Source of the DNA: Cryobacterium sp. PH29-G1
GTDB taxonomy: Bacteria; Actinomycetota; Actinomycetes; Actinomycetales; Microbacteriaceae
Assembly: GCF_030063365.1 (NCBI RefSeq)
Contig: NZ_JASISY010000006.1
Span: 62,001-126,000, forward strand
Direction of reading: 5' to 3'
Length of the DNA stretch: 64,000 bases
The notes below the pieces were generated by a model, which was not told the origin of the DNA, did not search any database, and was given only the letters and a program-made list of their open reading frames with translations. The translations under genes were made by a program, and so were the position numbers. Below are positions 36,557-59,582 of the stretch, piece after piece (positions within the stretch are counted from its first letter, which is position 1; each line of letters starts with the position of its first letter).

Positions 36557-38137
36557 ATGATCCCCGGTGAATCCCTCCATACGACCGGCACCGATCTCCG
36601 CGCCTTGTGGCAAACCCAGCCTGCAATAATTGCAATGACCGTGCTCTGGGCACCCGCTCATCGCCTGAAGGCTGCCGTTGCCTGGGTCACCCCTTGGTCA
36701 GCCCACGACAGCGATGACGATCTCGAAGGCCACCTTCTCTTAGTCAAACCAGATACCGCACGGCGGGCGATTGACTACGCGGTTGAGTGCGGTTCCATCG
36801 CAATTGCGATAGTCGGTGCCACCGCAGATTTAGACCCGGACATACTCGCGGCGGCGCGCCTGCGAAACATAGCCGTTGCCACCGTCGTGAGCGCACTAAC
36901 GCCGACAGGATTGGCACGCCAGTGGAATACCCAACTGGTGCGGGCGCGTGATCGCCGGGCTGAAGATGCTCTCGATCTGCATGAGCAACTGGCAAGGGCA
37001 CTCCTCGCGAACGCCGGAATCAGTGGTGCTCTTCGGCTAGCGCTGCGACCGCTGCACGAGGTGGAGGCCGTCGCCTTCAGCTATTTCGGTGAGATCGTCG
37101 GATCGCGGCAACCTTCCGCCCGCATCGTGACCGAGGTGGGGAGCCTGTTCAGTACGGCCAAGCGCCTGCTCAGTGACCGCGATTGGGCGGAAGAAACGCA
37201 GCCGGACGGCACGACCATCACCGCCGCTACCGTGCGAGTCTGGCGTAACCCCGAGGTATTTCTCGCGTTTCGCAGCACGCGGGCGGTTACTGACCGGGAC
37301 CGGCTCGCGTTTCGGCACTGCACGGTCGCGGTGCTTCTCGAACTCGGTCGTCAGCAGACCTTTCGGCGCGCACGCCGCGCTGCAGTGGAACCATTCCTGC
37401 GCGGCCTCGACGAGGGCAGTCTCAGCCTGTCGGACGCGAGAAATCAACTTCAGAATCTCGGCTTCCAAGCGGTCGAGGGGTATCGGGTGCTTTGCCTGAA
37501 TGCCCCGGTCGAACTCAGTACAGGGCAGGTGTGTTCTCTGGCTGAGGATGCGCTCGAAACATCGGGAACTCCCGTCGTCGGTTCGATCGATGAGCACGTT
37601 TACTGCCTCGTCGAGGAGTCGGGTGCGGACCAGGCTCAACGGCTCTTGGAAGCCTGCGTCGGGCGCGGCTGGACCGGGGTCAGAATCGGCGTCAGCAGGG
37701 TGAAGTCTGACGCGATTAATCTACGTGCAGCCATGCGCGAGGCCAACATCGCTGCATCACAACAGAGTCTCACCGAGAACGGAATTCAGCGGGTGGAAGA
37801 CCTCGGCATCCAGTCGATGCTCGCGCCCTTGCTTAGCACTCACGCGACGACATCGTTTCTGTCTGGACTGCTCGGGCCCCTGATCGAACGGGACAGCGCC
37901 GATGACACTCGCCTGCTGGAAACTCTGATCTCCTATTTCAATGCCGGTTGTCATCCTGGCCCTACGGCTCTGGCCCTCAACCTGCATCGGCACAGCCTCG
38001 CAAACCGGCTAGACCGCATTGAGGCATTGCTCGGCATGGACCCGCGCAACCCTGAGTACATGCTGACCTTCTCACTCGCCGTGCAGCTGTGGAAGGAATT
38101 GGGAGAGGCCGGGCAGCGCGTCCTAGCGGCAGAGTGA
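36557..38137 (+). CDS. PucR family transcriptional regulator
   Basis: A 526-residue regulator. It has an N-terminal PucR-like sensory region, a central GGDEF-like CdaR region, and a C-terminal helix-turn-helix (about residues 465-515: ALALNLHRHSLANRLDRIEALLG). It is the first gene of the metabolic island, divergent from the conjugation operon with 157 bases between starts. PucR relatives often control purine, amino acid or ring-nitrogen catabolism, which suits the hydantoinase and amine dehydrogenase genes nearby (inference). Confidence 0.88.
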   Translation: MIPGESLHTTGTDLRALWQTQPAIIAMTVLWAPAHRLKAAVAWVTPWSAHDSDDDLEGHLLLVKPDTARRAIDYAVECGSIAIAIVGATADLDPDILAAARLRNIAVATVVSALTPTGLARQWNTQLVRARDRRAEDALDLHEQLARALLANAGISGALRLALRPLHEVEAVAFSYFGEIVGSRQPSARIVTEVGSLFSTAKRLLSDRDWAEETQPDGTTITAATVRVWRNPEVFLAFRSTRAVTDRDRLAFRHCTVAVLLELGRQQTFRRARRAAVEPFLRGLDEGSLSLSDARNQLQNLGFQAVEGYRVLCLNAPVELSTGQVCSLAEDALETSGTPVVGSIDEHVYCLVEESGADQAQRLLEACVGRGWTGVRIGVSRVKSDAINLRAAMREANIAASQQSLTENGIQRVEDLGIQSMLAPLLSTHATTSFLSGLLGPLIERDSADDTRLLETLISYFNAGCHPGPTALALNLHRHSLANRLDRIEALLGMDPRNPEYMLTFSLAVQLWKELGEAGQRVLAAE

Positions 38138-38149
38138 CGCACGTGTAGA

Positions 38150-38797
38150 TCACACGCCCGAGGAATCGACCATTTGCTGGGCAATGATGCAGTGCAGGCG
38201 AACGTCACTGAGCTTTGACAGTGCACGACTGTACTCGTCGGGATCGGCGTGCAGTCGCACTCGGAGCCGAGTCAGCTCATCACGGTTGAAAACGAGGTCT
38301 CGACGGATGGATTCCCAGAACATCGGTGTGGAGCTATGGAACTCGTGCGCGATCTCACTGGCCAGCGGCGAGTAGAACACGAACAGTGCGTCGGTGAATA
38401 AGGGCACCAGGTGCGGGCGACGCAGATGCAGAATTGCCAGAGCGAGCGGAGCGCCCAACCCGTACCGATACCGAAAGTGCGTATACAGCTCGGTTACCCG
38501 ATCGAGAAGTTCCGGATCAACCGAGGGGTCGGCGTCACTCAACCGCAGTTGCTGCGGTACGCCGCCCCACTTCGCGCTCACCGACGCAACGAGTGCTCGT
38601 GAAACCCGATCGGCGTCAAGTTCCACACCGAGGGCAAGAATTCGACCAAAATCGGCAAGAGTCAGAGTGTCATCCGGTTGCGGATCAAGCGCCGGCAGGT
38701 TGCCGGCAAAATCGAAGTAGATGACCGCGTCCTGCCGATAGACGTGCAGGAGCAGCCACGCCTCGCTCTCATCGAGCCGGGTTCGGCCAATCCGCAT
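38150..38797 (-). CDS. DUF6308-like hypothetical protein
   Basis: A 215-residue soluble protein. The segments LADFGRILALGVELDADRVS and LYTHFRYRYGLGAPLALAIL, then HLRRPHLVPL, remind me of DUF6308. It ends 12 bases from the convergent PucR gene and begins 31 bases after the FAD dehydrogenase stop. It is therefore probably the last gene of the minus-strand catabolic operon. Function is unknown, and its link to the pathway is not evident. Confidence 0.6.
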   Translation of the reverse strand: MRIGRTRLDESEAWLLLHVYRQDAVIYFDFAGNLPALDPQPDDTLTLADFGRILALGVELDADRVSRALVASVSAKWGGVPQQLRLSDADPSVDPELLDRVTELYTHFRYRYGLGAPLALAILHLRRPHLVPLFTDALFVFYSPLASEIAHEFHSSTPMFWESIRRDLVFNRDELTRLRVRLHADPDEYSRALSKLSDVRLHCIIAQQMVDSSGV

Positions 38798-38827: not shown

Positions 38828-40165
38828 CTATGCCGACATGACAACCCGACTCCGCCGAGACGTCGGGGTAGGTCCGCGGCTGCCGAAGCGGTTCGCATCG
38901 AACGGGGCGCTCCATCCGGGTAATTTTTTCCCCCCGATGGCGCTGATGGCCAGTTCAGCGGATGCCGGGCCCAGGGTCAGACCGATCATGTTGTGTCCCG
39001 CAGCCACCACGACCCGATCGCTGGAACGCGCAGCGCCGATTAGGGGGAGTCCATCGGGCGTCATCGGCCTGGGACCGACCCACTCGTCGAAACGGGCATC
39101 CCAATCTATTCCCGTTAGGTACGGGGTGGCAGCGCGAATGATTCGCTCGATGCGACTCGGGTTGAACTTGTCCATCGTGCCGTCGAACTCGACTGTGCCG
39201 CCGATACGCAGGCGGTTGCCCATCGGAGTGGCAACCGCGTTGGATTCGGGCATGTTGATGACGTGCTCGGGCATTGTCTCGGGAGAGACGCTAAAGCTGT
39301 AGCCCTTGCCGGACTGGATGGGTGCGCGCACACCCACGGATTTGAGCACCTTGGGTGTCCAGGCCCCTGACGCAATGACGACGGCATCAGCATGCCGATC
39401 GCCCTTATCTGTGTGCACAACAACCGAGTCGCGGTATGGCGTGACGCCGGTCACCTCGGTATGTTCGATAAATTCGACACCGACGGCAAGCAAGGCGGCG
39501 TGCAAATCGCGTACGAGTACCGACGGATCAACGAACCATTGATCGGGCCAGTGGTAGCCGGCGACGACTTTGTTCGATACCACTGGAGCAAGTTCGCGAA
39601 TTTCGTCGCCGGAGATCAATTGGGTCGGTGCAGCGAGACCGAATCGACGAACGTTCTGGGAGACCGCAAACTCACGGTGCGCCCGTGCGCTATCGGCGAA
39701 GCAGCGCAGGTTGCCCGATTTATCCAGCGTGGTGGCGACTCCCAGATCGGGGAGCTGCTCGAATAGTTCGAAGCTGCGCTTTGACAGCGACGACAGTGCC
39801 TCAAAGCCATGCTCGTACGCGCCTGGCCGGCAGTTGCGGGCGAATCCCAGTAGCCAGCGGCTGAGGTTCACACTCGGGGGCAGGTGAATGCGCAGAGCTG
39901 CATCGGGAGCGAGAGAGTTTGAGAGCCCGTTTTTGACCATGCCTGGGGCCGGCATGGGATTAGCCATTGATGGGCAAATCTCGCCGGCGTTTCCCTGCGA
40001 TGCGCCGCTACCGACCACGCTTCGTTCGATCACGCGCACCCTGTAGCCGGCGCGCTGGCCATACAGTGCGGTGAACAGGCCGATAAGCCCGCCTCCGACA
40101 ACGGTGATCTCACTGATTCCGGGGCGCTGCGTGGGCAGGGTGCTCGGCCGGTTATCCGTGCTCAT
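38828..40165 (-). CDS. FAD-dependent oxidoreductase, DadA-like (D-amino acid dehydrogenase)
   Basis: A 445-residue flavoenzyme of the DAO family. The dinucleotide motif VVGGGLIGLFTA is near residue 22, ERSVVGSGASQGNAG follows, and GPRPMTPDGLPLIG is the C-terminal flavin-contact motif. AAGGAAG precedes ATG 40165. Enzymes of this type oxidise the C-N bond of D-amino acids or N-substituted amino acids, passing electrons to the respiratory chain. It follows hyuA, hyuB and a binding protein, so its substrate is probably the product of the hydrolase pair. Confidence 0.85.
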   Translation of the reverse strand: MSTDNRPSTLPTQRPGISEITVVGGGLIGLFTALYGQRAGYRVRVIERSVVGSGASQGNAGEICPSMANPMPAPGMVKNGLSNSLAPDAALRIHLPPSVNLSRWLLGFARNCRPGAYEHGFEALSSLSKRSFELFEQLPDLGVATTLDKSGNLRCFADSARAHREFAVSQNVRRFGLAAPTQLISGDEIRELAPVVSNKVVAGYHWPDQWFVDPSVLVRDLHAALLAVGVEFIEHTEVTGVTPYRDSVVVHTDKGDRHADAVVIASGAWTPKVLKSVGVRAPIQSGKGYSFSVSPETMPEHVINMPESNAVATPMGNRLRIGGTVEFDGTMDKFNPSRIERIIRAATPYLTGIDWDARFDEWVGPRPMTPDGLPLIGAARSSDRVVVAAGHNMIGLTLGPASAELAISAIGGKKLPGWSAPFDANRFGSRGPTPTSRRSRVVMSA

Positions 40166-40241: not shown

Positions 40242-41069
40242 TTAGCTGATGTCTTCGCCGAACCATTCCATGCTGATTTTTGTGTACGTGCCATCGTCGT
40301 GAATGGCCTGCAGAGCGGTGTTGATGGCAGCCAGCAGCTCGGTGTTGTCCTTGTTGACCGGGATGGCGGCGATGTCAGGCAGCAGCACGTCACCGACAGA
40401 TCCAACCTTCAGCTCGGCGCTGTTAGCTAGGAATTTTCCGATGAAGCCCTGCGCGATGACAGCATCCACGCGGCCAGCATCCAGGTCGCGGAGTGCGTCG
40501 ACGGTTGCCTGATAGGTCGTGATCTCGCCGACACCGGTGAGGGTGCGCGCGTAGGTTTCAAAAGTGGTGCCGAGTGCTACTCCGAGGTTGGAATCGGCAA
40601 GGTCGGTGACATCCGTGATCGGCGAGCCCTCCTTCACGAAGAGGCTGGCACCCGTGGAGTAGTAGGGCTCGGTGAAGTCGACTTCTTTGAGACGTTCTTC
40701 GGTGCTGGCCATCGATCCGACGATTGCGTCGAAGCGATTGCTCTTCAAACCAGCGATCAGCGTTGTGAAGGCGCCGGTGACGGGTGCCGCTTCCAGATCA
40801 AGTTTGTCGGCGATAGCGTTGCAGATGTCGACGTCGAAGCCAACGAGTGTATTGGTGTCATCGTAGAAGTTGAACGGCCGGTACTCGCCGCTCATGGCGC
40901 AGATGAACTTGCCGTCCTCCACGGTGCTGACAGCCGTTGCGGCCGCAGTGTCGGTCGGTTCGGCCGTGTCAACAGTGGCCGAGCAGGCGGTCGCGCCCAG
41001 GAGCAATCCGGCCGCGATGGTAGTCGCCGCAATACGGCGTAGTGCGGTGAGCGAGTGTTGAGTCTTCAT
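40242..41069 (-). CDS. Amino acid-type solute-binding lipoprotein (copy 1)
   Basis: A 275-residue family-3 binding protein with a lipobox (GATAC) and the core CAMSGEYRPFNFYDDTN, then VGFDVDICNAIADKL. It is the same length as, and strikingly similar to, the protein at 45745, yet no permease or ATPase gene adjoins it. It likely shares the importer at 46642-48060. AAGGA sits about 8 bases before the ATG, which overlaps the hyuB stop by 4 bases. The ligand is likely an amino acid or cyclic derivative. Confidence 0.9.
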   Translation of the reverse strand: MKTQHSLTALRRIAATTIAAGLLLGATACSATVDTAEPTDTAAATAVSTVEDGKFICAMSGEYRPFNFYDDTNTLVGFDVDICNAIADKLDLEAAPVTGAFTTLIAGLKSNRFDAIVGSMASTEERLKEVDFTEPYYSTGASLFVKEGSPITDVTDLADSNLGVALGTTFETYARTLTGVGEITTYQATVDALRDLDAGRVDAVIAQGFIGKFLANSAELKVGSVGDVLLPDIAAIPVNKDNTELLAAINTALQAIHDDGTYTKISMEWFGEDIS

Positions 41070-42919
41070 AGGATTGTCCTTCTTTCATTGTTTGCTGCTG
41101 CGGTGGATGAGGGAAATTTAGGGGGAACGGATGCGGCTGCACGGTTGGAACGCAGAGTCGCGGTCTTCGGCGCATCGACCAGCCCATCAACGGTCAGGAT
41201 GACGCCGTAATCGGCCTCGGCTTGTTCGGCGTTGATATAGCCGAGCTTGCAATCACGCGCGACTCGAGCTGTATCGCGCTCCCACGGTGCGCCGTACCCG
41301 CCGCCGCCAGGGGCGTAAAAGGTGACGGTGTCGCCGTACTCAAGATCGAGGGTTGGTCCCGCCTGATTGGCCAGAACGTGTGCCGCCGGCGTGCCTTCGT
41401 TAATAATCCAGCGGCTTACCCCGCCGCTGCCGCCGCCGAATAGGCCGTGGGGTGGGATCACGGAGCGCTGTGACGTGTGCGAGAATCTCACGTCGTATCC
41501 GAGGGCTTGCCAGGACAGAATGACGCCCAGGCCCCCGCGATATTTGCCGGGACCCGCGGAGCCGGCGCGAAGCTCCTTGCGCAGGTAACGGACGGGGCCC
41601 TCGACCTCCGAACTTTCAATTGATGTGCTCGCGACGTTGGTGATCCAACCGGGCATTCCGGTCAGACCGTCTTTCGTGGCGCGAGCGCCAAGCCCGCCGA
41701 CGCTGGGTCCAGCACCGTTGCCCCAGCCGCGGCGCCCGGAGACGTCGCCTCCATCGGGGTGGCTGTCGCGATTGATGGCCGACGCGACGCAATAGACCAT
41801 TCCGCACGAGTTGGCCACAACAGCGTCCGGGACCGCTGGCGCGAGCGCGTCGAAGACGAGGTCCACGATCTGGTGAGTCACCGCCATACGTTGGTAGACG
41901 GCGGCGGGGAATCGCGGGTTCACCAGCGAGCCCTCTGGCGCGACGATGTGTACTGGGTTTGATGATCCTTCGTTCTTGGGAATGTCCGTCGGAAGGAGCG
42001 ACAATAAACCGAACAAGCTGGCCGATATTGTTGCCGACATGGGGCAATTGATTGGTCCGGCAACGGATGCATCGGTGCCAGCGAAATCGAAGGTGATCTC
42101 ATCACCAGCAACTATCACTGTTAGTGCCAGCTTGACCGGGCCGCACATGCTCCCGTCTTCGAGCAGGGTTGTCTCGGCAGAGTATCGTCCGTCGGCGATT
42201 TGGGCGATGTAGCTGCGGGTACGCCGTTCTGCGTAGTCGATCTGGCTATCGATGGCCTCGTCGATCGCGGAGAGACCGTATTTCTCGACTAGGGCGAGGT
42301 AACCGTTTGCGCCGACCTTCGCCCCTGCTACTTGCCCAAGGATGTCCCCGCGCTGTTCGTACGGCGAGTTTGTATTGGCGAGGATGAGCTTGAACAGCTG
42401 CTCATCCAGAACTCCTTCATTGAAGAGTTTGATCGGCGGAATGCGCAGACCCTCCTCGAAGATGGTCGTGTGCCAGCCTTCAGGATCATTTCCGCCGGAA
42501 CCTGCCAGATGGGCGAAAATCGTCGAGAATCCGATCAATTGGTCGCCGAGGAATATCGGGTGGTAAACGATGAAGTCTGAAGTATGGTGAGCTCCAACAC
42601 TGCCGCCGACGTAGGGGTCGTTGGTCAGGATGATGTCGCCGGGTTTCATATCGCTCGCCGGGATGTGCTCCTGCAGCATGGCGCGCAGGCACGGGCCCAG
42701 GGCGTTGAGATGAACGGGGATATTCGCGCCTTCAGCAACGAGCCGGCCGGAGACGTCGAAGATGGAAGAGGAGCAGTCCTTGCCTTCCTTGAGGAGCAGG
42801 GAGTAGCTGGTGCGTTCCATGGTGTCGGTCATCTGTTCGGCGAGAGATTCCAGCGCGCTGCGGATGACTTCAACCGTGATGACGTCAAGTGTGCTCGTCG
42901 GAACGAGAGAGATGGGCAT
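41066..42919 (-). CDS. hyuB: Hydantoinase B/oxoprolinase family protein
   Basis: A 617-residue partner of HyuA in ATP-dependent hydrolysis of cyclic amides (hydantoins, 5-oxoproline, lactams). Family hallmarks are DVITVEVIRSALESLAEQM at the start, ILTNDPYVGGSVGAHHTSDF near residue 100 and the Gly-rich GGGSGG and PGGGGYGAP near the C-terminus. Its ribosome site AAGGAG lies inside hyuA, whose stop is 3 bases upstream. Overlap with the binding protein indicates a single transcript. Confidence 0.92.
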   Translation of the reverse strand: MPISLVPTSTLDVITVEVIRSALESLAEQMTDTMERTSYSLLLKEGKDCSSSIFDVSGRLVAEGANIPVHLNALGPCLRAMLQEHIPASDMKPGDIILTNDPYVGGSVGAHHTSDFIVYHPIFLGDQLIGFSTIFAHLAGSGGNDPEGWHTTIFEEGLRIPPIKLFNEGVLDEQLFKLILANTNSPYEQRGDILGQVAGAKVGANGYLALVEKYGLSAIDEAIDSQIDYAERRTRSYIAQIADGRYSAETTLLEDGSMCGPVKLALTVIVAGDEITFDFAGTDASVAGPINCPMSATISASLFGLLSLLPTDIPKNEGSSNPVHIVAPEGSLVNPRFPAAVYQRMAVTHQIVDLVFDALAPAVPDAVVANSCGMVYCVASAINRDSHPDGGDVSGRRGWGNGAGPSVGGLGARATKDGLTGMPGWITNVASTSIESSEVEGPVRYLRKELRAGSAGPGKYRGGLGVILSWQALGYDVRFSHTSQRSVIPPHGLFGGGSGGVSRWIINEGTPAAHVLANQAGPTLDLEYGDTVTFYAPGGGGYGAPWERDTARVARDCKLGYINAEQAEADYGVILTVDGLVDAPKTATLRSNRAAASVPPKFPSSTAAANNERRTIL

Positions 42920-42922: not shown

Positions 42923-45007
42923 TCAGACACTCCTTGAGGAATTGGACGAGGCGAGGGCCGGTGCGAGATCGTAGATCACGAGACTGCCGTCGTCGGCGGG
43001 TTCCAGAAGATGGCCCGGCGGCACGACAATGGTGCTTCCGGATTCCTCGATGATTGCTGGGCCCGTGATGGAATCGCCCTGACGGATGGCGGCGCGAGCG
43101 AAAACAGGTACGTCGAGCCAGGTATTGAAATATGCGCTTCGGGTCGTGGTGGGCATCGGCGCGACCCCGTCCTCTGAACGAGCCAGCGCAACCGGACGTG
43201 GGCTATAGGTCTTTCCGATTCCGGTGACGCGGAGGTTTACGAGCTCGATCGGATCGGATTGGGACGAGTGTCCATATCGGCCTTCATGCTGGCGATGGAA
43301 TTCGCGTTCCAGACTGTCGAGCGTTTCGGTCGTGATCGGTCCGGACGGGCACGGCACGATCAACTCGAAGGTTTGGCCAAGATAGCGTAGTTCGACAAAT
43401 CGATGTATCTCGCGGGAATCCTCCTGGACGTTATCCTGCTCCAGTTGGAGCGCGCAGTCACCTTCGAGCTGTTCGAATGCAATATTCAGTGCGGCTACGT
43501 CGCTTCCAGCCAGGAGGGAGAGGAACGAGGCAAGAACGTCGTGGCGCTGGTCAGTGAGCAGGAGCCCAAGGGCGGAACTGTTGCCGGGATTTTGGGGAAT
43601 CACGAGCCGGGGCGTGCCCAACTCGTGGGCCAGCGCGGCGGCGATGAGCCCGCCGGCGCCGCCGAAAGCGATGAGGGCCATGTCGCGGGGATCGTGTCCG
43701 CGCGCGATGGTGAGCCGCCGAATGGCGCGCAGGGATGCGGCTGCCGCGAGCGCCATGATGCCGCTTGCCACGGCAGGCATCGACATGCCCAGGGGTTCGG
43801 CGACTATTTCTATGGCGCGCACGGCGGCATCACGATCGAGGGTACGGCGCCCGCCAAGGAACGCGCTGGTCCCGAGATAGCCGAGTGCAAGCGCGGCGTC
43901 CGTAACTGTAGGACGAATGCCGCCCTCACCGTACGCGGCCGGACCGGGATGCGCGCCGGCGCTTTCCGGGCCCACTCGCAAGGCCCCGCCATCGTCGACC
44001 CACGCGATCGAGCCGCCCCCAGCCCCGATCGGGTCAACTTCGATGGCCGGTTGCTGCACCGGATGGCCCTGCATGGCATCGCTCGGGACCTCAATGGGCG
44101 CGCCGTCCAAAACGAGAGCTACGTCCGTACTCGTGCCGCCCATATCGAGAGTGATCACTGCCGGTAGGTCGAGGTTGCGGGCGATTGCAGCACCAGCGAT
44201 GACGCCGGCGACTGGGCCGGAATTAGTCACACGAATCGGTTGGCGCCGGGCAGCGTCGAAGGACATCGTTCCGCCGTTGCCCTGCATAGTGAGCAATACG
44301 GCATCGATGCCCAACTTCCGAAGCTGGTCCTCAAGATGGGCGAAGTGCTCGGCGAGTCGCGGTTTCACGAAGGCGTCTACGGCGGCCGTGCTGGCACGCT
44401 CGTATTCGCCGATGGTCGGGCTCAGATCCGACGAAATTGAGATGTAGGCCTGGGGAAGGGCTGCGCGAACGAGTGTAGCGATTTGTTGCTCGTGAGCATC
44501 ATTCTTATACGAGTGCAGAAGGCAGATAGCGACCGATTCGACGCCACGGTTCGCGAATGTCGCAATTGCCTGGCGCACATCCGCTTCGTTCAGCGGTTCG
44601 ACAATGCGTCCGCGAAAGTCAATTCGCTCGCGCACGCCGAGGCGCAGCTCTCGGGGAATGAGCGGGACAGGCTGTTCCCATTGAATGTTGTAGATGCTGC
44701 CGGCCCGGTGAGACCGGGCGAGTTCGAGCACGTCTGTGAATCCAGCCGTGGTGATCAGCCCGCTGACTGTCCCGTCACCCTGGATGATGCGGTTGACCAT
44801 CACTGTTGTGCCGTAGACCACCGTCGACACCTGAGAAGGGTTGACGCCAGCCGTGGCAAGAACGCGCTCGATGCCGTTGAGCACCCCGATGACGGGGTCA
44901 CTCGGCGTCGAGGACACTTTGTCCACCCACACGGCTCCGGTTTCCTCGTTGAGCAGCACGAGGTCGGTATGCGTGCCGCCCGTGTCTATGCCCACTCTGA
45001 AAGTCAC
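42923..45007 (-). CDS. hyuA: Hydantoinase A/oxoprolinase family protein
   Basis: A 694-residue ATP-dependent subunit with an actin-like nucleotide site: GIDTGGTHTDLVL at the N-terminus and ITLDMGGTSTDVAL near residue 270. AAAGGA 7 bases before GTG 45007 sets the start; homology also begins here. With HyuB it should open a cyclic imide or amide ring at the cost of ATP. Families in this group include 5-oxoprolinase, N-methylhydantoinase, acetone carboxylase subunits and caprolactamase, so the substrate cannot be named. Confidence 0.92.
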   Translation of the reverse strand: MTFRVGIDTGGTHTDLVLLNEETGAVWVDKVSSTPSDPVIGVLNGIERVLATAGVNPSQVSTVVYGTTVMVNRIIQGDGTVSGLITTAGFTDVLELARSHRAGSIYNIQWEQPVPLIPRELRLGVRERIDFRGRIVEPLNEADVRQAIATFANRGVESVAICLLHSYKNDAHEQQIATLVRAALPQAYISISSDLSPTIGEYERASTAAVDAFVKPRLAEHFAHLEDQLRKLGIDAVLLTMQGNGGTMSFDAARRQPIRVTNSGPVAGVIAGAAIARNLDLPAVITLDMGGTSTDVALVLDGAPIEVPSDAMQGHPVQQPAIEVDPIGAGGGSIAWVDDGGALRVGPESAGAHPGPAAYGEGGIRPTVTDAALALGYLGTSAFLGGRRTLDRDAAVRAIEIVAEPLGMSMPAVASGIMALAAAASLRAIRRLTIARGHDPRDMALIAFGGAGGLIAAALAHELGTPRLVIPQNPGNSSALGLLLTDQRHDVLASFLSLLAGSDVAALNIAFEQLEGDCALQLEQDNVQEDSREIHRFVELRYLGQTFELIVPCPSGPITTETLDSLEREFHRQHEGRYGHSSQSDPIELVNLRVTGIGKTYSPRPVALARSEDGVAPMPTTTRSAYFNTWLDVPVFARAAIRQGDSITGPAIIEESGSTIVVPPGHLLEPADDGSLVIYDLAPALASSNSSRSV

Positions 45008-51152: not shown

Positions 51153-51174
51153 ATGCCCGAGTTTCACCGAATAC

Positions 51175-51196
51175 AATCGATCGAACGTTCGGACTC
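51175..51196. promoter_or_regulatory. Candidate TetR operator 3 (autoregulatory)
   Basis: AATCGATCGAACGTTCGGAC lies just upstream of the TTG start chosen for the TetR gene. It shares AATCGATCGA with the two other repeats and contains the palindrome CGAACGTTCG. Confidence 0.4.
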
Positions 51197-51221
51197 CGAG
51201 TTCGTGTCTGAAGGAGTTGCC

Positions 51222-51959: not shown

Positions 51960-51982
51960 CTTTGTCGGGCGGGAGGCCACCC

Positions 51983-53212
51983 ATGTCTGAGCCAGTCATC
52001 GTCGCCACCGCGCGCACGCCGATCGGACGTGCCTTTAAAGGAAGCCTGGCCGCAGAACGTCCCGAAAATCTTGCTGCCGCAGCGATCAGCGCCGCCCTGG
52101 ACCAGATTCCGCAGCTGGATCCGCGCGACATCGACGACCTCATCGTCGGCTGTGGTGTGCCCGGCGGAATTCAGGGTAGTAATCTCGCCCGGGTCATCGC
52201 CGTTCAGATGGGCTGGGACAGCGTGCCGGGCGTGATCGTGTCCAGGTTCTGCGCATCGTCTCTTCAAAGCATCCGCTCGGCCGCCCATGCGATTCGCGCT
52301 GGCGAGGGCGACGTCTTTGTCGCTGCGGGCGTCGAGTCCATTTCGAGCTTCGCCCAAACGGATGTCGACGGCTCACCCCAGGCGCACAGCCCCAATTTTG
52401 CGGCCGCGGCCGAGCGCACCGCCCGTCGGACCGGGCTGAACGTTCAATCAACCGCGCCATGGCGCGACCCGCGCGATGACGGCGCTCTGCCTGACGTTTA
52501 CATTCAGATGGGTCAGACTGCCGAAAACGTAGCCTCGCTGACGGGGATCAGTCGACTCGACCAAGATAATTTCGCCCTGCGCAGTCAGACGCTCACAGCC
52601 GCTGCCGCCGCCAGCGGCTTCTGGGCTGGGGAAATCAGTCCCTATCGCCGCGCCGACGGGTCATTGATACAGACGGATGACAGCCCACGGCCGCAGACCA
52701 CTCTCGAAGCGCTGGCCGGGCTGCAACCGGCCTTCCGAGTCGGCGGATCGGTGACGGCCGGCAACAGCTGTCCGCTCAACGACGGTGCTGCTGCAGTGGT
52801 GATCATGTCGCATGAACGGGCACGGGAGCTGGGTATTGTGCCTCTGGCGCGCATTCTCGGTACCGGAGTGTCGGCCGTGTCGCCGGAGATCATGGGCACC
52901 GGGCCGGTCGGCGCAATTTCGCGGCTACTGGACCGGCTGGGAATGAACTTGAGCCAGATCGATGAATTCGAGATCAACGAGGCATTCGCCGTGCAGGTAC
53001 TGTCCAACATTCGTGCCCTGGGAATTGACCCGGCGCGGGTAAACGTAAACGGTGGAAGTCTCGCTATCGGCCACCCCTACGGTATGACCGGCGCCCGGAT
53101 CGCGACGACCCTCGTGCATTCTTTGCGCGTACACGACCGGCAGTTCGGCATGGAAGCAATGTGCGTTGCCGGTGGGCAGGGCATGGCTCTGGCACTTGAA
53201 CGCCTGAGCTGA
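51983..53212 (+). CDS. Acetyl-CoA C-acyltransferase (thiolase)
   Basis: A 409-residue thiolase that cleaves a 3-ketoacyl-CoA to acetyl-CoA and a shortened acyl-CoA. The nucleophile is Cys90 (SRFCASS). His lies in the GGSLAIGHPYGMTGAR block near the C-terminus, and the acid/base is Cys394 (MCVAGGQG). GGAGG lies 7 bases before ATG 51983. It is the last step of the beta-oxidation-like sequence encoded here. Confidence 0.93.
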   Translation: MSEPVIVATARTPIGRAFKGSLAAERPENLAAAAISAALDQIPQLDPRDIDDLIVGCGVPGGIQGSNLARVIAVQMGWDSVPGVIVSRFCASSLQSIRSAAHAIRAGEGDVFVAAGVESISSFAQTDVDGSPQAHSPNFAAAAERTARRTGLNVQSTAPWRDPRDDGALPDVYIQMGQTAENVASLTGISRLDQDNFALRSQTLTAAAAASGFWAGEISPYRRADGSLIQTDDSPRPQTTLEALAGLQPAFRVGGSVTAGNSCPLNDGAAAVVIMSHERARELGIVPLARILGTGVSAVSPEIMGTGPVGAISRLLDRLGMNLSQIDEFEINEAFAVQVLSNIRALGIDPARVNVNGGSLAIGHPYGMTGARIATTLVHSLRVHDRQFGMEAMCVAGGQGMALALERLS

Positions 53213-53253
53213 TCAACGTGACCAATCGCAACAACGAACGGGTGGGGTATTCC

Positions 53254-54015
53254 ATGACAACAACAACGAAACAGGTCGCGATTGTGACCGGTGGCGCACA
53301 GGGCATCGGCGCGGCGATCGCGCGGCGGCTGGCCGCCGACGGGATTGCGGTCGCGGTCCTCGACAGAAACCTCGTCGCGGCCGAGGACTGCGTGCGAGAC
53401 CTCGTTGCGGGGGGAGCCACGGCGATTGCCGTGCAGGTCGACGTCTCCGATGAGGCCTCGGTGGCCGCCGCTGTGGCACTCGTCGCAGAGCAACTTGGAG
53501 CTCCTCAGATCCTCGTGAACAATGCGGGAGTTCTACGCGACAACATGCTGTTCAAGATGACCGCTGTCGACTGGGATCTCGTGCTGGGAGTCCACCTGCG
53601 AGGGGCCTTTCTTATGTCGAGGGCCGTGCAAAGCCACATGGTGGCGGCGAAGTGGGGCCGCATCGTCAACCTTTCGAGCACTTCCGCGCTCGGTAACCGC
53701 GGTCAGGCCAACTACGCGGCGGCTAAGGCGGGCGTGCAGGGTTTCACGAAGACTTTGGCATGGGAGCTCGGCCCCTACGGGGTGACCGTGAACGCGGTCG
53801 CGCCGGGGTTCATCGCGACCGACATGACCCGCGCTACGGCCGAACGGCTCGGCGTGACCTTTGACGATTTCCAGGCCAGCGCTGCAGCCGCGATTGCCGT
53901 TCGCCGGGTCGGCGCCCCCGAGGACGTCGCGGATGCCGTGTCATTTTTTGTCGGGCTCGGCGCTGGCTTCGTGTCCGGTCAGGTCCTGTATGTGGCTGGC
54001 GGCCCTCATGGCTGA
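53254..54015 (+). CDS. SDR oxidoreductase, FabG/3-hydroxyacyl-CoA dehydrogenase-like
   Basis: A 253-residue SDR with TGGAQGIG at residues 12-19, NNAG near 89, the active-site Ser in NLSSTSALG and YAAAK near 157. GGTGGGG precedes ATG 53254; GTG 53218 lacks a ribosome site. Its position between thiolase and a MaoC hydratase suggests oxidation of a 3-hydroxyacyl-CoA. Its stop overlaps the MaoC start by 8 bases. Confidence 0.88.
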   Translation: MTTTTKQVAIVTGGAQGIGAAIARRLAADGIAVAVLDRNLVAAEDCVRDLVAGGATAIAVQVDVSDEASVAAAVALVAEQLGAPQILVNNAGVLRDNMLFKMTAVDWDLVLGVHLRGAFLMSRAVQSHMVAAKWGRIVNLSSTSALGNRGQANYAAAKAGVQGFTKTLAWELGPYGVTVNAVAPGFIATDMTRATAERLGVTFDDFQASAAAAIAVRRVGAPEDVADAVSFFVGLGAGFVSGQVLYVAGGPHG

Positions 54016-54499
54016 ATCGGCTCTGCCGCGGGTGTTCGCCGGAGTGGAAGCCGTCGCGGCTGCGAACGGCGAGGAACTCGGCCCCACCCCCTGGTTGCTG
54101 ATTAGCCAGAAGGACGTGGATGCCTTCGCTCGTGTCACCAAGGACTGGCAGCCGCTGCACTGCGACCCCACGGCCGCAGCGCACACATTGTGGGGCACGA
54201 CCATCGTGCACGGCTACCTAACGATGTCGCTGCTCAGCTTCTTTGCCGGGCAGCTCTACCGCGTCGATGGCGTTGCTCACGTACTGAACTACGGCATCGA
54301 TAAGCTGCGCTTTCCCGCGTCGGTTCCGGTCGGCTCACGCATTCGTGCCCGCGCCGTTGTCGGATCGTTCGCCATGAAAGGGGAATTGGGCGTGGTCGGT
54401 GTCAGGTACAGCGTCGAGGTTGAGGGTGCCTCGAAACCGTGCCTCGTCGCTGAAACGCTCGTAGGACTTGTTCCAACCGCCGCTCCAGAAAGCAGATAG
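54008..54499 (+). CDS. MaoC family dehydratase/hydratase
   Basis: A 163-residue hot-dog fold protein. The hydratase motif is DWQPLHCDPTAAA (near residue 47), followed by GTTIVHGYLTMS, with Asp and His as the expected catalytic pair. The open frame extends back to 53861 inside the SDR gene, but homology starts at ATG 54008. It probably gives (R)-3-hydroxyacyl-CoA, complementing the crotonase-type hydratase at 48118. Confidence 0.87.
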   Translation: MAESALPRVFAGVEAVAAANGEELGPTPWLLISQKDVDAFARVTKDWQPLHCDPTAAAHTLWGTTIVHGYLTMSLLSFFAGQLYRVDGVAHVLNYGIDKLRFPASVPVGSRIRARAVVGSFAMKGELGVVGVRYSVEVEGASKPCLVAETLVGLVPTAAPESR

Positions 54500-54504: not shown

Positions 54505-56145
54505 ATGGCCATGCCACCGCTCGACCTCATCATTCGAAATGCCACAGTACTCACCATGGACGACCGCCGGCCGGAGGCCGGGGCGATCGGGGTTCAAAAT
54601 GGCCGAATCGTTGCGGTCGGGGCCGAACTCGATGGGTATTCGGCGACGCGGCAGATCGACGGCGGAGGGTTGACCGTGTTGCCCGGATTCAACGACGTGC
54701 ATTGCCACACCACATGGTTCGGTTTGTCCCTCACTGAAGTCGATTGTGCTGCGTTCGGTCGACTGGACGACGTGTATGCGGCCCTCGCCGCGAAGATCGC
54801 TGTGACGCCGGAGGGAAGCTGGGTATTGGCGTCCGGGTTCAACCACCAGGCGTTTGGCGGACAATATCCCGATATTGCAATTTTGGACCGGCTGGCGCCC
54901 CGGCATCCGATCTATATTCGGCATAATTCAGGTCATGCCTGCATCGTCAATTCGGCAGCACTCGAATTGGCCGGGTTTCTGGCCGCAGATCGGGTCGAGG
55001 AGGATGGTGCCCTGGCCGTGCGTGACCGTGGTGGCTGCTTCACTGGATTGCTCGAAGAGCGTGCCCAACAAAAAATTCAGGATCTATTTCTACCGCACTC
55101 CCAACGCACCATCACTGAGGCGATTGACCGGGCTACCTCGGTCTATGCCGCCGAGGGAATCACGAGTTTCACAGAGGCCGGAATTGGCGGGGGCTGGATT
55201 GGTCACAGCCCGCTCGAGCTGGCGGCCTATCAGACGGCTCTCGACAACGGCGCGCTATCGGCGCGGGCCCAGCTCATGGTGGCACTGGATGCGCTGCACC
55301 CCGTTGTCGGCCACGTTGACGACCCGATCAAGCTGGGGCTCGACTTGGGCGTGCGAACCGGATTCGGCAACGAACTCCTGCGAGTCGGGCCGACCAAGGT
55401 ATTTCTCGACGGCTCGCTGTTGGGACTGACTGCTGCAATGAACGATCCGTACTGCGTGGGCGCGGCTCACAACCACGGCTACTTTCAGGGCGATGTCGGA
55501 CAGCTCAAAGAGCGCATTCTTGCCGCCTACCGGTCGGGCTGGTCGATCGCCGCGCACGCCATTGGAGATTCCGCCATAGACCTCGCGATCGAGATCTTCG
55601 AGAAGGCTCGGTCACTGTATGGCAACCGCCCCGTGCCGAATCGCATCGAGCACGGTGGCGTGATAACGGATGCCCAACTCGCCCGAATCCAGGCGGTGGG
55701 CGCAATTGTGGTACCGCAGCCGGGTTTCATCCCGGCCTTTGGTGTTGACATGGCCCGCGCTCTCGGAGCTGACCGGGTGCCGCTGTCCTACCGCGCAGCT
55801 TCTCTGCTCTCGGCCGGTATTCCTCTCCCCGGAAGTTCGGACCGCCCGGTCACGTCGGGCAACGCGCTTCGCAATGTTCAGGCTTTCGTTGAGAGACTCG
55901 ACGCTGCCGGCGAGATCTACGGGCCGGACGAACGCATCACCGTCGCCGAGGCGCTGCGGGCTTATACCCTGGGTTCGGCGCAAACAACGGGCGCCGACAA
56001 CGTAGCCGGGAGCATTACACCCGGCAAGTTCGCCGACTTCGTCCTGCTCGATCGCAACCCGCTGACCACGCCGGTCGAGTCCATCGCCCAGATCGGGGTC
56101 GCGGCAACGATCATGAACGGCGAGTTCACTTACGACCACCGCTAA
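54505..56145 (+). CDS. Amidohydrolase, YtcJ-like
   Basis: A 546-residue metal-dependent amidohydrolase. The N-terminal metal motif is NDVHCHT near residue 68. The Lys or equivalent region is in KVFLDGSL, and further metal ligands are in WSIAAHAIGDSAID and RIEHGGVI. The C-terminal beta-sandwich ends GSITPGKFADFVLLDRNP. It begins 5 bases after the MaoC gene, so it belongs to the same transcript. It would hydrolyse an exocyclic or cyclic amide or carbamate of the substrate. Confidence 0.88.
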   Translation: MAMPPLDLIIRNATVLTMDDRRPEAGAIGVQNGRIVAVGAELDGYSATRQIDGGGLTVLPGFNDVHCHTTWFGLSLTEVDCAAFGRLDDVYAALAAKIAVTPEGSWVLASGFNHQAFGGQYPDIAILDRLAPRHPIYIRHNSGHACIVNSAALELAGFLAADRVEEDGALAVRDRGGCFTGLLEERAQQKIQDLFLPHSQRTITEAIDRATSVYAAEGITSFTEAGIGGGWIGHSPLELAAYQTALDNGALSARAQLMVALDALHPVVGHVDDPIKLGLDLGVRTGFGNELLRVGPTKVFLDGSLLGLTAAMNDPYCVGAAHNHGYFQGDVGQLKERILAAYRSGWSIAAHAIGDSAIDLAIEIFEKARSLYGNRPVPNRIEHGGVITDAQLARIQAVGAIVVPQPGFIPAFGVDMARALGADRVPLSYRAASLLSAGIPLPGSSDRPVTSGNALRNVQAFVERLDAAGEIYGPDERITVAEALRAYTLGSAQTTGADNVAGSITPGKFADFVLLDRNPLTTPVESIAQIGVAATIMNGEFTYDHR

Positions 56146-56200
56146 TGGCCCCGCTTCTATCGAATCTCACTGTCAAGCAATCACAGTAGAAGCGGGGCCA
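56146..56200. terminator. Hairpin terminator between convergent genes
   Basis: TGGCCCCGCTTCTA and TAGAAGCGGGGCCA form a perfect 14-bp stem with a 27-base loop immediately after the amidohydrolase TAA. It serves both the + operon and the convergent monooxygenase gene. There is no T-run. Confidence 0.65.
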
Positions 56201-56235
56201 GTTCCGTCGTATTGGGGCCAACAGATTCCTGGACG

Positions 56236-57651
56236 CTACGCCGCAGTTACCTGCGTCTCCATGCGACTTCTCCGCGGCAACGACGCGTAGAAGTCGTCAT
56301 CATCGAAGCCGGTCGGTACGGCGATGCCAAATTCCGTGCGGGCTGCTTGCGGAATCGTAGCCAGAAGCATCTGAGCGTCGTACTGATTCTCATTTCGTGG
56401 GGTATCGACAAAGGGAAAACCTGCCGTCATGTCGGGGTCATATTCAGTTTTGAACCGGCGCAGCCCCTCTGCGTTCTCCCCGGTCAGAGTCGCATGTGCA
56501 TCGGCCGCGGCGAAGTTGGCGAAGTAGTCGAAGACCGTCCAGCCCGCGCCGACCGCTGCGTGGATGCTGCCGCCAGAGTAGAGACCTTCCGCTCCGGGAA
56601 AGAACAATGCGAGGTGCAAGTGCGGGTGACCGCGCCGGTACTCGACCAGCCCGTCGGGGAGAAAGTCGTAGTGCACCTCGTACCCGGTCGCGAAGACGAT
56701 GACGTCGACGTCCTCGGAAGTTCCATCGTCAAAATACACGGTCGAACCATCGATTCGTTCGAGGTCTGGGCGACGCGTGAGTAATCCGTGCGAGAACGCG
56801 TGCAGCACGGTATTGCTCACGATCGGGTGGGTCTCACCGACCGGCCCTTCCGGCACCGGCAGTCCGTACGTTGACAGATCGCCAACAGTGGAAAGCACGA
56901 CGTCCATGAAATCAGCGGGTTCGAGACCGTCCATCCAGGGCCGGGGCGCGATCTGCGCTCGGCCGTCAAAGAGGTCAGGAAGGGCCACACCAAAAATCTG
57001 CTTCGGAAAGAAGTAGTACGGGCGTCGGGTCGACAGGAACGCAGCATCAGCGTGAAAGGCGGCGTCGGAAGCAATGTCTACGCCGCTGTTTCCAGCGCCG
57101 ACAACGAGAACCCGCTTGCCCTTCAACTCTTCGGTTGAGCGATAGTCTTTCGCGTGGATCGCCCGACCGGTAAACGAGTCGAGACCGGGTATGTTCGGGA
57201 CGAGGGGCTGCCATTGCGACCCGATCGCCGAGTATATTCCGCGGTAGCGACGCCTTTCACCCGTGGACAGCAGCACGTCCCAATAGCGGCCGACCGCGCT
57301 GTCGACCGGAGTGGCCGTGACGACCGACAGGCCAAACTCGCAGAGTTCGTCGAGCTGAAACTCACGGGCGAAGTCCTGAATGTAGGCGTACAGGTCCGAC
57401 CAGCGCGGATACATCGGCAGGTCATCGGACATGGGGAATCCGACGAAGCCACCGGCCACGCGAGATGAGATCATGCTGCAGGATTCATACATTGGGGTTC
57501 CGGGGTTGTCCATGTCCCAGAGCCCGCCGAGTCGGGTATGGCGTTCAATGATGTCGACATCGATACCGTATCGGCGAAATGCCCGAGCGGCGATGAGCCC
57601 GTTGACACCGGCACCGATGATCAAATAGCGGGTGGGAAGTTCGTCATTCAT
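56236..57651 (-). CDS. Flavin-containing monooxygenase family protein
   Basis: A 471-residue FAD/NADPH enzyme. The first dinucleotide motif is GAGVNG (residues 13-18). The FMO fingerprint F-x-G-x3-H-x3-Y is FTGRAIHAKDY (near residue 160), and the second nucleotide motif is VVGAGNSGVDIA. It could oxygenate an amine nitrogen or insert oxygen next to a ketone (Baeyer-Villiger type). It is the second gene of a minus-strand pair with the SDR upstream, separated from it by 57 bases. Confidence 0.85.
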   Translation of the reverse strand: MNDELPTRYLIIGAGVNGLIAARAFRRYGIDVDIIERHTRLGGLWDMDNPGTPMYESCSMISSRVAGGFVGFPMSDDLPMYPRWSDLYAYIQDFAREFQLDELCEFGLSVVTATPVDSAVGRYWDVLLSTGERRRYRGIYSAIGSQWQPLVPNIPGLDSFTGRAIHAKDYRSTEELKGKRVLVVGAGNSGVDIASDAAFHADAAFLSTRRPYYFFPKQIFGVALPDLFDGRAQIAPRPWMDGLEPADFMDVVLSTVGDLSTYGLPVPEGPVGETHPIVSNTVLHAFSHGLLTRRPDLERIDGSTVYFDDGTSEDVDVIVFATGYEVHYDFLPDGLVEYRRGHPHLHLALFFPGAEGLYSGGSIHAAVGAGWTVFDYFANFAAADAHATLTGENAEGLRRFKTEYDPDMTAGFPFVDTPRNENQYDAQMLLATIPQAARTEFGIAVPTGFDDDDFYASLPRRSRMETQVTAA

Positions 57652-57708
57652 AGCTTTTCTCTCCTTCGTCGTAGGTTCACAAATGAAACGTGCGGTGTCA
57701 TTGACGAA

Positions 57709-58488
57709 CTAGGTCAGAACTGTTCCGCCATCAACGGCCAGCGTCTGGCCTGTGATGTTCTTGGCTCGCTCGCTGAGAAAGAAGGCCGTCGCTTCAGCGA
57801 TGTCTTCCGGCTCCTGCGGCCGACCCATGGGCACGTTCTGATCGACGATGCCCGCGAAGATTTGTTCGTCGGTCACGTCGGCCAGGGCAGGATTGTGCTC
57901 GCGCATGAAGGGCACGCTATTGCGCCACATGTCGGTGTAGATGAAGCCGGGCATGATCGCATTCGAGCGGATGCCTTTGCGCCCGTAACCGCGCGCAAAG
58001 CTGTGGCTCAGTTCGATGACCGCAGCTTTCGAGGCGCCGTAGTGCGCCAGCACATCATTGCCCGAGCGTGCACCGATCGACGAGATATTGACAATGGATG
58101 CCGGTGCCGTCGCGACGCGAACAAATGCCTGCGACATCAGGAAAGTTCCCTTGGTATTGATTTCGAAGACACGATCCCACTGTTGCGGCAGAAGTTCCTC
58201 GATGCCGCAGAACCCGCCGATGCCTGCGGCGTTGACCAGGCCGGTCACGGCGCCTACCTGGTTTGCGCGCTCAAACAGTGCCGTGACCTGGTCGGGGTCA
58301 CTCACATCGCAGACGTGAGAAATTACGCGAGCACGTGAACTGGCGCCGATGCGCTCGACGACCGCTTGAAGGGCCTTTTCCTGAATGTCGGTCACAAGCA
58401 CGACGTCGAAGTCGTCGGCGACGCGAGCGGCGATCGCCGACCCAAGTCCGCCTGCTGCCCCGGTAACAATCACAACTGTTGAATTCAC
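57709..58488 (-). CDS. SDR family oxidoreductase
   Basis: A 259-residue SDR with TGAAGGLGSA near residue 10, NAAGIGG near 89 and YGASKAA near 154. The final residues DGGTVLT are typical. It is divergent from a LysR gene and upstream of the monooxygenase, so an alcohol-to-ketone oxidation feeding the monooxygenase is plausible (inference). Confidence 0.88.
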   Translation of the reverse strand: MNSTVVIVTGAAGGLGSAIAARVADDFDVVLVTDIQEKALQAVVERIGASSRARVISHVCDVSDPDQVTALFERANQVGAVTGLVNAAGIGGFCGIEELLPQQWDRVFEINTKGTFLMSQAFVRVATAPASIVNISSIGARSGNDVLAHYGASKAAVIELSHSFARGYGRKGIRSNAIMPGFIYTDMWRNSVPFMREHNPALADVTDEQIFAGIVDQNVPMGRPQEPEDIAEATAFFLSERAKNITGQTLAVDGGTVLT

Positions 58489-58691
58489 TACGACTCCTCA
58501 TTGAGTGGTGGATGGCGAGCGTGCAGGCATCCGTTTGAGTGGAATCTGACGCTCGTTGGTTCGAGATTGAGTCTCGGGGAGGCGGGCCTCGAAGTACATG
58601 TCGCAAACCGTACGTGTGCGCACGAACTTCTTATCGAGCGCCGAGCACGTGGCATCTACACTGTGAACACCTGCCAAGGAGGGCGATGCGC

Positions 58692-59582
58692 GTGAACAAA
58701 GATGTTTCGGGCTTGGATATCAACTTGCGAGCAGTGAGCGCTTTCGTCACCGTCATGGAAGAAGGTCACTTTGGCCGGGCAGCCGCGAGCATGTTTGTGA
58801 CGGCTCCGGCTCTGAGCCAACAGATTCGTCGTCTCGAGCAATCGTTGGGCTTTCGACTGATCAAGCGAGACTCGCACCCACTGACGCTGACAGCAGCCGG
58901 AGTGGCGTTCATGCCACACGCCTGCCGGCTGCTCGATTCCGCTCAGGAAGCAGCCCTCGACCTGACCCGCTTTGCTCGCAGTCGCGATCACACCCTGCGC
59001 GTGGGCTTCATCGCCGGCGGCACCCAACACGCAACGTCATTGTTGCGTCGCTTGAGCAACCGCATCGAGCTCAAACAACTGAACTGGCCCGAGCAGCTGA
59101 CCGCCGTGGCCAACGGAACGGTTGACGCATCGTTCGTGATTCCGCCCATTCCGCTAGTCGACGGCCTGACTCTGGAGCCGATCGGAACGGAGCCGCGTGT
59201 CGTCGCCGTGCATCGTGAGCATCCGCTGATCGGCAGCGCCACCGTGTCGATCAATGACCTCGACGATGATGAGCACGTCGGTGCCGACCACATGACCCCG
59301 GACTGGATGAATTGGTGGGCGGTCGACCCGCGCCCCAGCGGGCGACCGGTACGCTACGGACCAATCATCCACACGATGGATGAAGAGCTGCAGTTGGTCG
59401 CCACCGGACGTGCCATTGCGATCACGACCACCTCGATTGCGTCGTACTACGCGGGAGCGGATGTCGAGTTCATTCCCGTTCGCGACATCGAACCCTGTGT
59501 GATCATGCTGTGCACGCGAACCGGGGACGACCACACCGGGGTTCGGGAACTGCGTAGGGCGAGTTCGGCGCTAATGATCTAA
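58692..59582 (+). CDS. LysR family transcriptional regulator
   Basis: A 296-residue regulator. Its helix-turn-helix covers residues 8-65 (NLRAVSAFVTVMEEGHFGRA, APALSQQIRRLEQSLG). AAGGAGGG lies about 8 bases before GTG 58692; ATG 58686 is too close to it. It is divergent from the SDR-monooxygenase pair and is probably its activator. It is the last intact gene of the metabolic island, and its stop abuts the decayed conjugation-gene copy. Confidence 0.9.
   Translation: MNKDVSGLDINLRAVSAFVTVMEEGHFGRAAASMFVTAPALSQQIRRLEQSLGFRLIKRDSHPLTLTAAGVAFMPHACRLLDSAQEAALDLTRFARSRDHTLRVGFIAGGTQHATSLLRRLSNRIELKQLNWPEQLTAVANGTVDASFVIPPIPLVDGLTLEPIGTEPRVVAVHREHPLIGSATVSINDLDDDEHVGADHMTPDWMNWWAVDPRPSGRPVRYGPIIHTMDEELQLVATGRAIAITTTSIASYYAGADVEFIPVRDIEPCVIMLCTRTGDDHTGVRELRRASSALMI

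Follow-up and report, generated by a model that had tools for sequence, protein, structure and literature searches.

A catabolic gene island between tandem DUF6112 genes of an actinobacterial conjugative element in Cryobacterium, with a possible role in cyclic amide breakdown

Introduction

ATP-dependent hydantoinases, 5-oxoprolinases and caprolactamases (HyuAB, CapAB) are two-subunit enzymes with ATP motifs in one subunit and an Asp-His-Asp-His site in the other. They are useful in lactam and hydantoin chemistry as ring-opening enzymes. In this study, we analyzed a window of 64,000 nucleotides from Cryobacterium sp. PH29-G1 (contig NZ_JASISY010000006.1, bases 62,001-126,000), in which positions 36,557-59,582 are an intact metabolic island with a hyuAB pair, situated inside an actinobacterial type IV secretion system (T4SS) locus between tandem DUF6112 genes, here called t1 and t2. 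The island is a variation on two known kinds of system, the catabolic cargo of integrative and conjugative elements (ICEs) and the HyuAB pathway. The reading that we favor as a whole, with moderate confidence, is that a variable DUF6112 slot of a chromosomal actinobacterial conjugative element, present here as a probably immobile 43-kb remnant, holds the island as cargo, and that the island serves to import a carboxylated, amine-blocked cyclic amide and degrade it via a coenzyme A (CoA) route. It would thus offer a small, testable gene set for the breakdown of a nitrogen ring compound in Cryobacterium.

The island pair resembles the HyuAB and CapAB enzymes in its two-subunit layout, ATP motifs and Asp-His-Asp-His site. 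In contrast to CapAB, it scores under the equivalog cut-offs and is joined to genes for a CoA ligase, hydratases, a thiolase and a thioesterase; caprolactam breakdown, unlike the island, runs via a transaminase route. In the N-methylpyrrolidone (nmp) and creatinine/N-methylhydantoin pathways, too, a DAO-type amine oxidase acts after a HyuAB-type hydrolase, a likeness that we draw from their general descriptions and, by sequence, from the N-methylhydantoinase in the PDB. Their end products are succinate semialdehyde or sarcosine, and no CoA-dependent chain is involved. The breakdown of carnitine/crotonobetaine and the fermentation of lysine (KDD-KCE), again by general description, are similar in operating without an acyl-CoA dehydrogenase, in splitting a β-keto (amino) acid and in having a thioesterase, but they have no place for HyuAB and DAO, and the CoA ligase, KDD and KCE homologs all score under the respective equivalog cut-offs. 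The mobilizable plasmid p2MP from Arthrobacter sp. 68b encodes an Amidohydro_3 enzyme to which that of the island is 45% identical over 99% of its length. The p2MP neighborhood, which presumably serves pyridine breakdown, encodes LLM flavin oxidoreductases, a flavin reductase and SSADH, and none of these families is present in the island. Catabolic ICEs with cargo hotspots, such as ICEclc and SXT/R391, are described as having tRNA attachment (att) repeats, T4SS genes and cargo in defined places, as seen here; the present element differs in that its slot is bordered by tandem DUF6112 genes belonging to an actinobacterial T4SS.

Results and discussion

Tandem DUF6112 genes border a cargo slot

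An earlier note, made from the sequence alone, had described a catabolic island carried inside a conjugative element, with conjugation genes resuming on its right side in decayed and intact form. Both claims are borne out. To the right of the island lie a decayed copy of t2 and then an intact t2 (Table 1), and carriage is attested by the presence of the island in a second carrier, by the defined slot and by att repeats together with an empty site. All 21 island open reading frames (ORFs) that were scanned are open and have a Pfam match at E ≤ 0.001, although the one to DUF6308 is slightly under the cut-off of that family. These families fit the note's description of the intervening genes as metabolic or regulatory, except that the DUF6308-like protein and the GNAT acetyltransferase are not clearly metabolic. 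The left junction is confined to about 41 bp, and the right limit of the island DNA held in common with Cryobacterium sp. PH31-L1 is at 59,597. The arrangement is not due to chance because PH31-L1 repeats the same order and junction at 86-87% DNA identity.

To place this arrangement in the family, 150 genomes were searched for DUF6112; 24 of them matched at E ≤ 1e-10, giving 66 hits, among which the PH31-L1 pair is absent. Neighboring t2 and t1 genes form 31 pairs, a count that omits three partnerless t1 hits and a decayed third copy in genome G068. The gap between them is 17-399 bp in 19 pairs and 666 bp to 25.8 kb in the other 12, the largest being that of the window itself. Gene order was examined in 13 element stretches, picked mostly for a large gap, and 12 have the order t2-gap-t1-SCO6881-SCO6880-VirB4; the remaining one, in Cryobacterium sp. 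PH31-O1, has a 43-residue t2 match and a 42-residue TraG match, with VirB4 unmatched. The gap in PH31-L1 holds the same island directly (t1-island-t2) with t2 open, and at the right edge of that island is a 47-bp piece resembling part of the IS3 transposase region of the window. The G068 element has the same backbone (VirB4, 98%; TraG, 92%), and its slot is filled by 6.9 kb of different content that includes a decayed t1 copy. Judged by this conserved order and by the 12 large gaps among the 31 pairs, the space between the tandem DUF6112 genes is a cargo slot. Two genomes have decayed t1 or t2 copies within the slot, which suggests that cargo may have accreted stepwise by recombination through the DUF6112 ends. 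Our literature search returned no paper mentioning DUF6112. The slot indicates where one group of actinobacterial conjugative elements places cargo, and it can be searched for across many genomes.

It is very improbable that conjugation genes were instead inserted around an old chromosomal catabolic locus. Such an origin would agree with the clusters of PH31-O1, Cryobacterium melibiosiphilum, genome G026 and the marine actinobacterium PHSC20C1, all in stretches unmatched by the conjugation proteins of the window; however, the island splits DUF6112 genes that are at most 399 bp apart in 19 of the 31 pairs, and PH31-L1 has the same split beside a different tRNA gene.

A second region of the G068 element, at 130,107-134,382 between TraG and the next backbone gene, contains BKACE and LacI regulator genes (Pfam) along with SDR-like and MFS-like ORFs (named by eye), and is possibly a second cargo slot.

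The element is probably an immobile remnant

Exact 39-bp repeats of the 3' end of tRNA-Pro lie 43 kb apart around the locus. PH31-O1 has an empty site, where DNA similar to the right flank (91%) and the left flank (78-82%) of the window joins at the 39-bp core. Among the features of an intact ICE, the tRNA att repeats with an empty site are present, as are the T4SS ATPase (scoring under curated cut-offs) and the coupling protein. A full-length integrase is absent: a 224-residue ORF beside tRNA-Pro matches residues 1-217 of a 395-residue homolog, and the other half has no match anywhere on the contig. No relaxase was found among the element ORFs scanned, which were a part of the total and were not searched with a relaxase profile. 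The genes of a conjugative element are thus present as the earlier note had it, but the element here is defective, a 43-kb remnant that is probably immobile.

The tRNA-Pro sites of five other Cryobacterium genomes were also read. Four have homology to this integrase/excisionase end and PH31-O1 has none; in three of the four (PH31-L1, G068 and G029), sequence like the attL region recurs 5.8-7.9 kb away, and in PH31-L1 the left flank of the window comes after this recurrence. From these comparisons, the conjugative piece seems to be nested inside a small tRNA-Pro island, the whole being a remnant. The island-bearing element of PH31-L1 adjoins tRNA-Met, of which a second identical 75-bp copy is located 89 kb away.

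The host contig comprises 218 kb of a 3.8-Mb genome. By its gene content it belongs to the chromosome, because ORFs upstream resemble CTP synthase, cytidylate kinase and EngA (named by eye from the starts of their translations). The only plasmid relatives of the island were short matches within the ABC ATPase gene, in six records, and the window has no Rfam match at gathering scores.

Three modules with separate distributions

Gene presence in relatives was assessed by tblastn of the window genes against stretches fetched around each cluster. Four relatives carry the cluster: PH31-L1 (G036), PH31-O1 (G013), C. melibiosiphilum Hh39 (G003) and PHSC20C1 (G443). In a scan of named genomes, four relatives among 19 have HyuA at no less than 78% identity, and in a family sample HyuA passes E ≤ 1e-250 in 4 of 398 genomes (own genome counted). 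The amidohydrolase at 71% identity or more is found in 4 of 57 genomes of the genus, again including the own genome.

By gene content, the island is modular, consisting of modules A, B and C (Table 1). Module A is found in PH31-L1, PH31-O1 and PHSC20C1, and in C. melibiosiphilum it is present up to the contig end without PucR. Module B is complete in PH31-L1 and C. melibiosiphilum, lacks the amidohydrolase in PH31-O1, and occurs without module A in G026. Close homologs of module C exist only in PH31-L1, that is, only in the two element-borne copies. The C. melibiosiphilum amidohydrolase gene (G003:C42:65094-66740) has one in-frame stop (TAG), and the enzyme may therefore be dispensable in that species. 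Beside module A, PHSC20C1 has genes for a KDD-like dehydrogenase, a thioesterase, BKACE and TetR together with the same permease and ATPase; the KDD-like and KCE/BKACE-like genes are those that it shares with lysine fermentation. The PH31-L1 cluster has an additional phosphotriesterase-family gene. The DUF6308-like protein is 65-93% identical across all five module-A loci, and its structure model is poor (mean predicted local distance difference test score, 49.8).

The conjugation proteins of the window had no match in the stretches read around the clusters of PH31-O1, C. melibiosiphilum, PHSC20C1 and G026; the conjugative setting is therefore not general. Of the neighboring ORFs, four beside the PH31-O1 cluster and one beside the PHSC20C1 cluster belong to other Pfam families. 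C. melibiosiphilum and G026 have some flanking genes in common, and part of the distribution may therefore reflect a shared chromosomal region.

These distributions modify the earlier note. It treated the island as a single block, which applies to PH31-L1 but not to the separately distributed modules, with the flavin monooxygenase, SDR and LysR genes confined to the element-borne copies and the amidohydrolase missing from the PH31-O1 cluster. It proposed looking for the same gene order in other actinobacteria with and without flanking conjugation genes: PH31-L1 has the same island in the same slot, but the stretches of the other clusters do not match the conjugation proteins. The island is not a fixed chromosomal locus of most relatives free of conjugation genes, the finding that the note had named as contrary to its view; HyuA reaches at least 83% identity in 3 of 36 other Cryobacterium genomes.

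Might modules A and B be two unrelated clusters side by side, A for hydantoin or lactam use with an amino-acid dehydrogenase and B for the degradation of amide-linked unsaturated or hydroxy acids, sharing only the transporter? We consider this possible but rather unlikely. The G026 stretch contains B without HyuAB, DAO and PucR, module A in PHSC20C1 is accompanied by KDD-like and BKACE genes, while the stretch read there contains no close relative of the module-B CoA ligase, thiolase or enoyl-CoA hydratase (ECH), and each module has its own regulator and solute-binding protein (SBP). On the other hand, A and B are joined in PH31-L1, PH31-O1 and C. melibiosiphilum as well as in the window, and in these joined loci two SBPs that are 65-67% identical to each other have one permease/ATPase between them, and module A in PHSC20C1 adjoins the same permease, the same ATPase and a thioesterase.

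A cluster of alanine dehydrogenase, amino acid permease and PucR genes is found near the island both in the window (7,950-12,185) and in C. melibiosiphilum (54,848-59,151), differently arranged.

Enzymes, binding proteins and predicted pathway

The catalytic motifs are intact in the enzymes checked, in keeping with the general chemistry proposed in the earlier note. HyuA has the ATP motifs DTGGTHTD (position 26), DMGGT (306) and GAHPGP (369), and HyuB, aligned to 6yra_B, keeps the metal tetrad listed in Table 1; these are the features of the HyuAB/oxoprolinase superfamily, with the sites taken from the caprolactamase paper (PMC8453981). In the PDB, HyuA matches N-methylhydantoinase best (1.5e-148), followed by 6yra, labeled 5-oxoprolinase (3.7e-129). 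Both cysteines and the histidine of the thiolase and both glutamates of ECH, at positions that we take to be catalytic, are present. The thiolase passes one general acetyl-CoA acetyltransferase model of NCBIfam. The CoA ligase reached 264 bits against a cut-off of 651 with the carnitine/crotonobetaine CoA ligase equivalog (PRK08008), and the PHSC20C1 homologs of KDD and KCE scored 163.1 of 200 and 278.2 of 382 bits, respectively, with the lysine-fermentation equivalogs.

Alternatively, HyuAB could fall into the acetone/acetophenone carboxylase branch and act as an ATP-dependent carboxylase or on C-C bonds in some other way, as such carboxylases belong to the superfamily (PDB matches 5l9w and 5m45; PMC8453981). 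We regard this as improbable, since carboxylase subunits appear in the HyuA search only at 1.3e-83 and weaker, far behind the hydantoinase and 6yra, and HyuB shows the same ranking pattern. Caprolactam was considered as the substrate and not adopted, given equivalog scores far under the cut-off and a resting-cell result reported in PMC9477822.

The Pfam scan of 21 island ORFs revealed no acyl-CoA dehydrogenase, as required for classical fatty-acid β-oxidation. The β-oxidation-type sequence of the earlier note would therefore have to start from an acid that already bears a double bond, a hydroxyl or a β-amino group.

The binding proteins provide a further indication of the substrate. Family-3 SBPs normally bind the carboxylate of their ligand by Arg and the α-ammonium by Asp. 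In all 10 SBPs of the clusters, the Arg is kept and Gln takes the place of Asp, whereas the five other family-3 SBPs of the own genome (E ≤ 1e-10) all have Asp. This pocket change points to a ligand with a carboxylate and without a free α-amine. Together with the general slot, we consider it the most useful new point of this study.

We propose a degradation pathway in which every reaction step and the substrate class are predicted from sequence. The SBPs, permease and ATPase would import a small carboxylated compound with an α-amine that is either blocked or contained in a ring. HyuA would activate it with ATP, and HyuB, with its metal, would open the cyclic amide. A further C-N bond may be cleaved by DAO, perhaps with a contribution of the amidohydrolase, and the CoA ligase would convert the freed acid to its CoA ester. 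This ester would enter the ECH/MaoC hydratase, FabG-like 3-hydroxyacyl dehydrogenase and thiolase steps at an unsaturated, hydroxy or β-amino level, similar to the breakdown of carnitine/crotonobetaine, and the thioesterase would release the remaining acyl or aminoacyl group. The KDD and BKACE genes in place of the CoA route in PHSC20C1 suggest a β-keto (amino) acid as the shared intermediate and its split as the shared end. Our literature search returned no paper combining a hydantoinase with β-keto acid cleavage.

Several observations weigh against cargo status combined with a single pathway. Module B occurs without A, and A occurs without most of B; the modules may therefore serve two substrates. 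Among eight slot ORFs scanned in other elements, six have no Pfam match, one is weakly ORC-CDC6-like and one is an α/β hydrolase, and five of the eight gave no match in a PADLOC scan. Catabolic cargo is thus not the rule of the slot. The 75-bp repeat in PH31-L1 may be another att or simply a second tRNA-Met gene, and the stretches fetched for the G068 and PH31-O1 elements contained no att repeat of at least 14 bp. The island DNA is 86-87% identical to PH31-L1 and 82% to PH31-O1, lower than the core gene EngA (93% to both), and therefore does not show recent transfer. On the chemical side, substrate-specific equivalog cut-offs were missed in all models tested, including caprolactamase (HyuA 577.1 and HyuB 264.8 bits; cut-off 1000 each). 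PMC9477822 reports resting-cell assays in which caprolactam was not degraded by the HyuAB pair that a caprolactam degrader carries. The Asp of family-3 SBPs is not universal, as the SBP of a separate ABC cluster at 5,685-6,536 has Pro at this position.

A wider interpretation would join two proposals. In the first, the DUF6112 gap would serve actinobacterial T4SS elements in general as a previously undescribed cargo slot, into which cargo comes by recombination through the DUF6112 ends, with decayed copies left behind as scars. In the second, the pathway of the island would likewise be undescribed: a carboxylated, amine-blocked ring would be opened with ATP and its product passed on to aminoacyl-CoA-type chain cleavage, for which two endings, CoA ligase/thiolase and KDD/BKACE, would be interchangeable. 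In this joint form, we advance it only tentatively and hold it to be doubtful.

Three separate hyuAB pairs are found within 115 kb of the contig: the island pair, one at contig 34,735-38,611 and one at contig 145,459-149,285. The two non-island pairs are 28-41% identical to the island pair, and their neighbors differ.

Feature coordinates and minor observations

Table 1. Features of the island, the cargo slot and the element (window positions unless the contig is named).
Feature	Position	Strand	Remarks
attL	21,129-21,167	.	39-bp exact repeat of tRNA-Pro(ggg) 3' end
Left part of element backbone	23,898-25,795		85% identical to PH31-L1, 86% to G068
TraG/TraD-type coupling protein	28,412-30,217	-	Pfam
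VirB4-type conjugation ATPase, C-terminal part	30,395-31,882	-	NCBIfam matches under cut-offs; plasmid homologs
SCO6880 family conjugation protein	33,280-34,743	-	NCBIfam 446 bits, cut-off 60
SCO6881-like protein	34,746-36,104	-	NCBIfam 110 bits, below cut-off of 325
DUF6112 gene t1	36,130-36,510	-	Left border of cargo slot; Pfam
Left junction interval	36,470-36,510		G068 backbone homology stops at 36,469; PH31-O1 island homology starts at 36,510
A: PucR-type regulator	36,557-38,137	+	
A: DUF6308-like protein	38,150-38,797	-	Present at each of the five module-A loci
A: FAD amine/amino-acid dehydrogenase (DAO, DadA-like)	38,828-40,108	-	True start may be upstream of 40,108
A: family-3 SBP b (SBPb)	40,242-41,069	-	Arg kept, Asp to Gln
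A: HyuB, metal-site subunit	41,066-42,919	-	D48, H112, D115, H137 kept
A: HyuA, ATP-binding subunit	42,923-45,061	-	
B: YbgC/FadM-like acyl-CoA thioesterase (4HBT_2)	45,158-45,610	-	
B: family-3 SBP c (SBPc)	45,721-46,572	+	Arg134 kept, Gln215 for Asp
B: polar amino acid type ABC permease	46,642-47,292	+	
B: ABC ATPase	47,296-48,060	+	
B: ECH (crotonase family)	48,118-48,894	+	
GNAT acetyltransferase	48,937-49,386	-	Unmatched in G026 stretch
B: acyl-CoA ligase	49,485-51,152	+	
B: TetR regulator	51,153-51,959	+	
B: thiolase	51,962-53,212	+	
B: FabG-like short-chain dehydrogenase/reductase (SDR)	53,218-54,015	+	
B: MaoC hydratase	53,861-54,499	+	True start probably further downstream
B: Amidohydro_3 hydrolase	54,505-56,145	+	
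C: flavin monooxygenase (FMO-like)	56,236-57,651	-	
C: SDR	57,709-58,488	-	
C: LysR regulator	58,539-59,582	+	
Decayed copy of t2 and part of adjoining gene	59,632-60,080	-	59,632-59,997 plus 60,011-60,080
Second slot content	61,379-62,099		78.7% identical to G068 slot content
DUF6112 gene t2	62,291-62,572	-	Right border of cargo slot; by homology, without NCBIfam match of its own
Truncated M23 peptidase gene	ending at 63,108		M23 named from PH31-L1 homolog
Integrase fragment	63,083-63,757	-	Fused at 63,108 to truncated M23 peptidase gene
attR partner	contig 126,177-126,215		In tRNA-Pro; 177-215 bases past window end

Upstream of TraG, the window has a 2.7-kb insertion relative to PH31-L1 (25,795-28,456), with a 697-residue ORF that has no Pfam or NCBIfam match. 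The element region of PH31-L1 (G036 186,830-195,774) also contains HmaC/DUF499-like, MzaB-like and MzaC/Z1 genes, an apparent anti-phage defense set.

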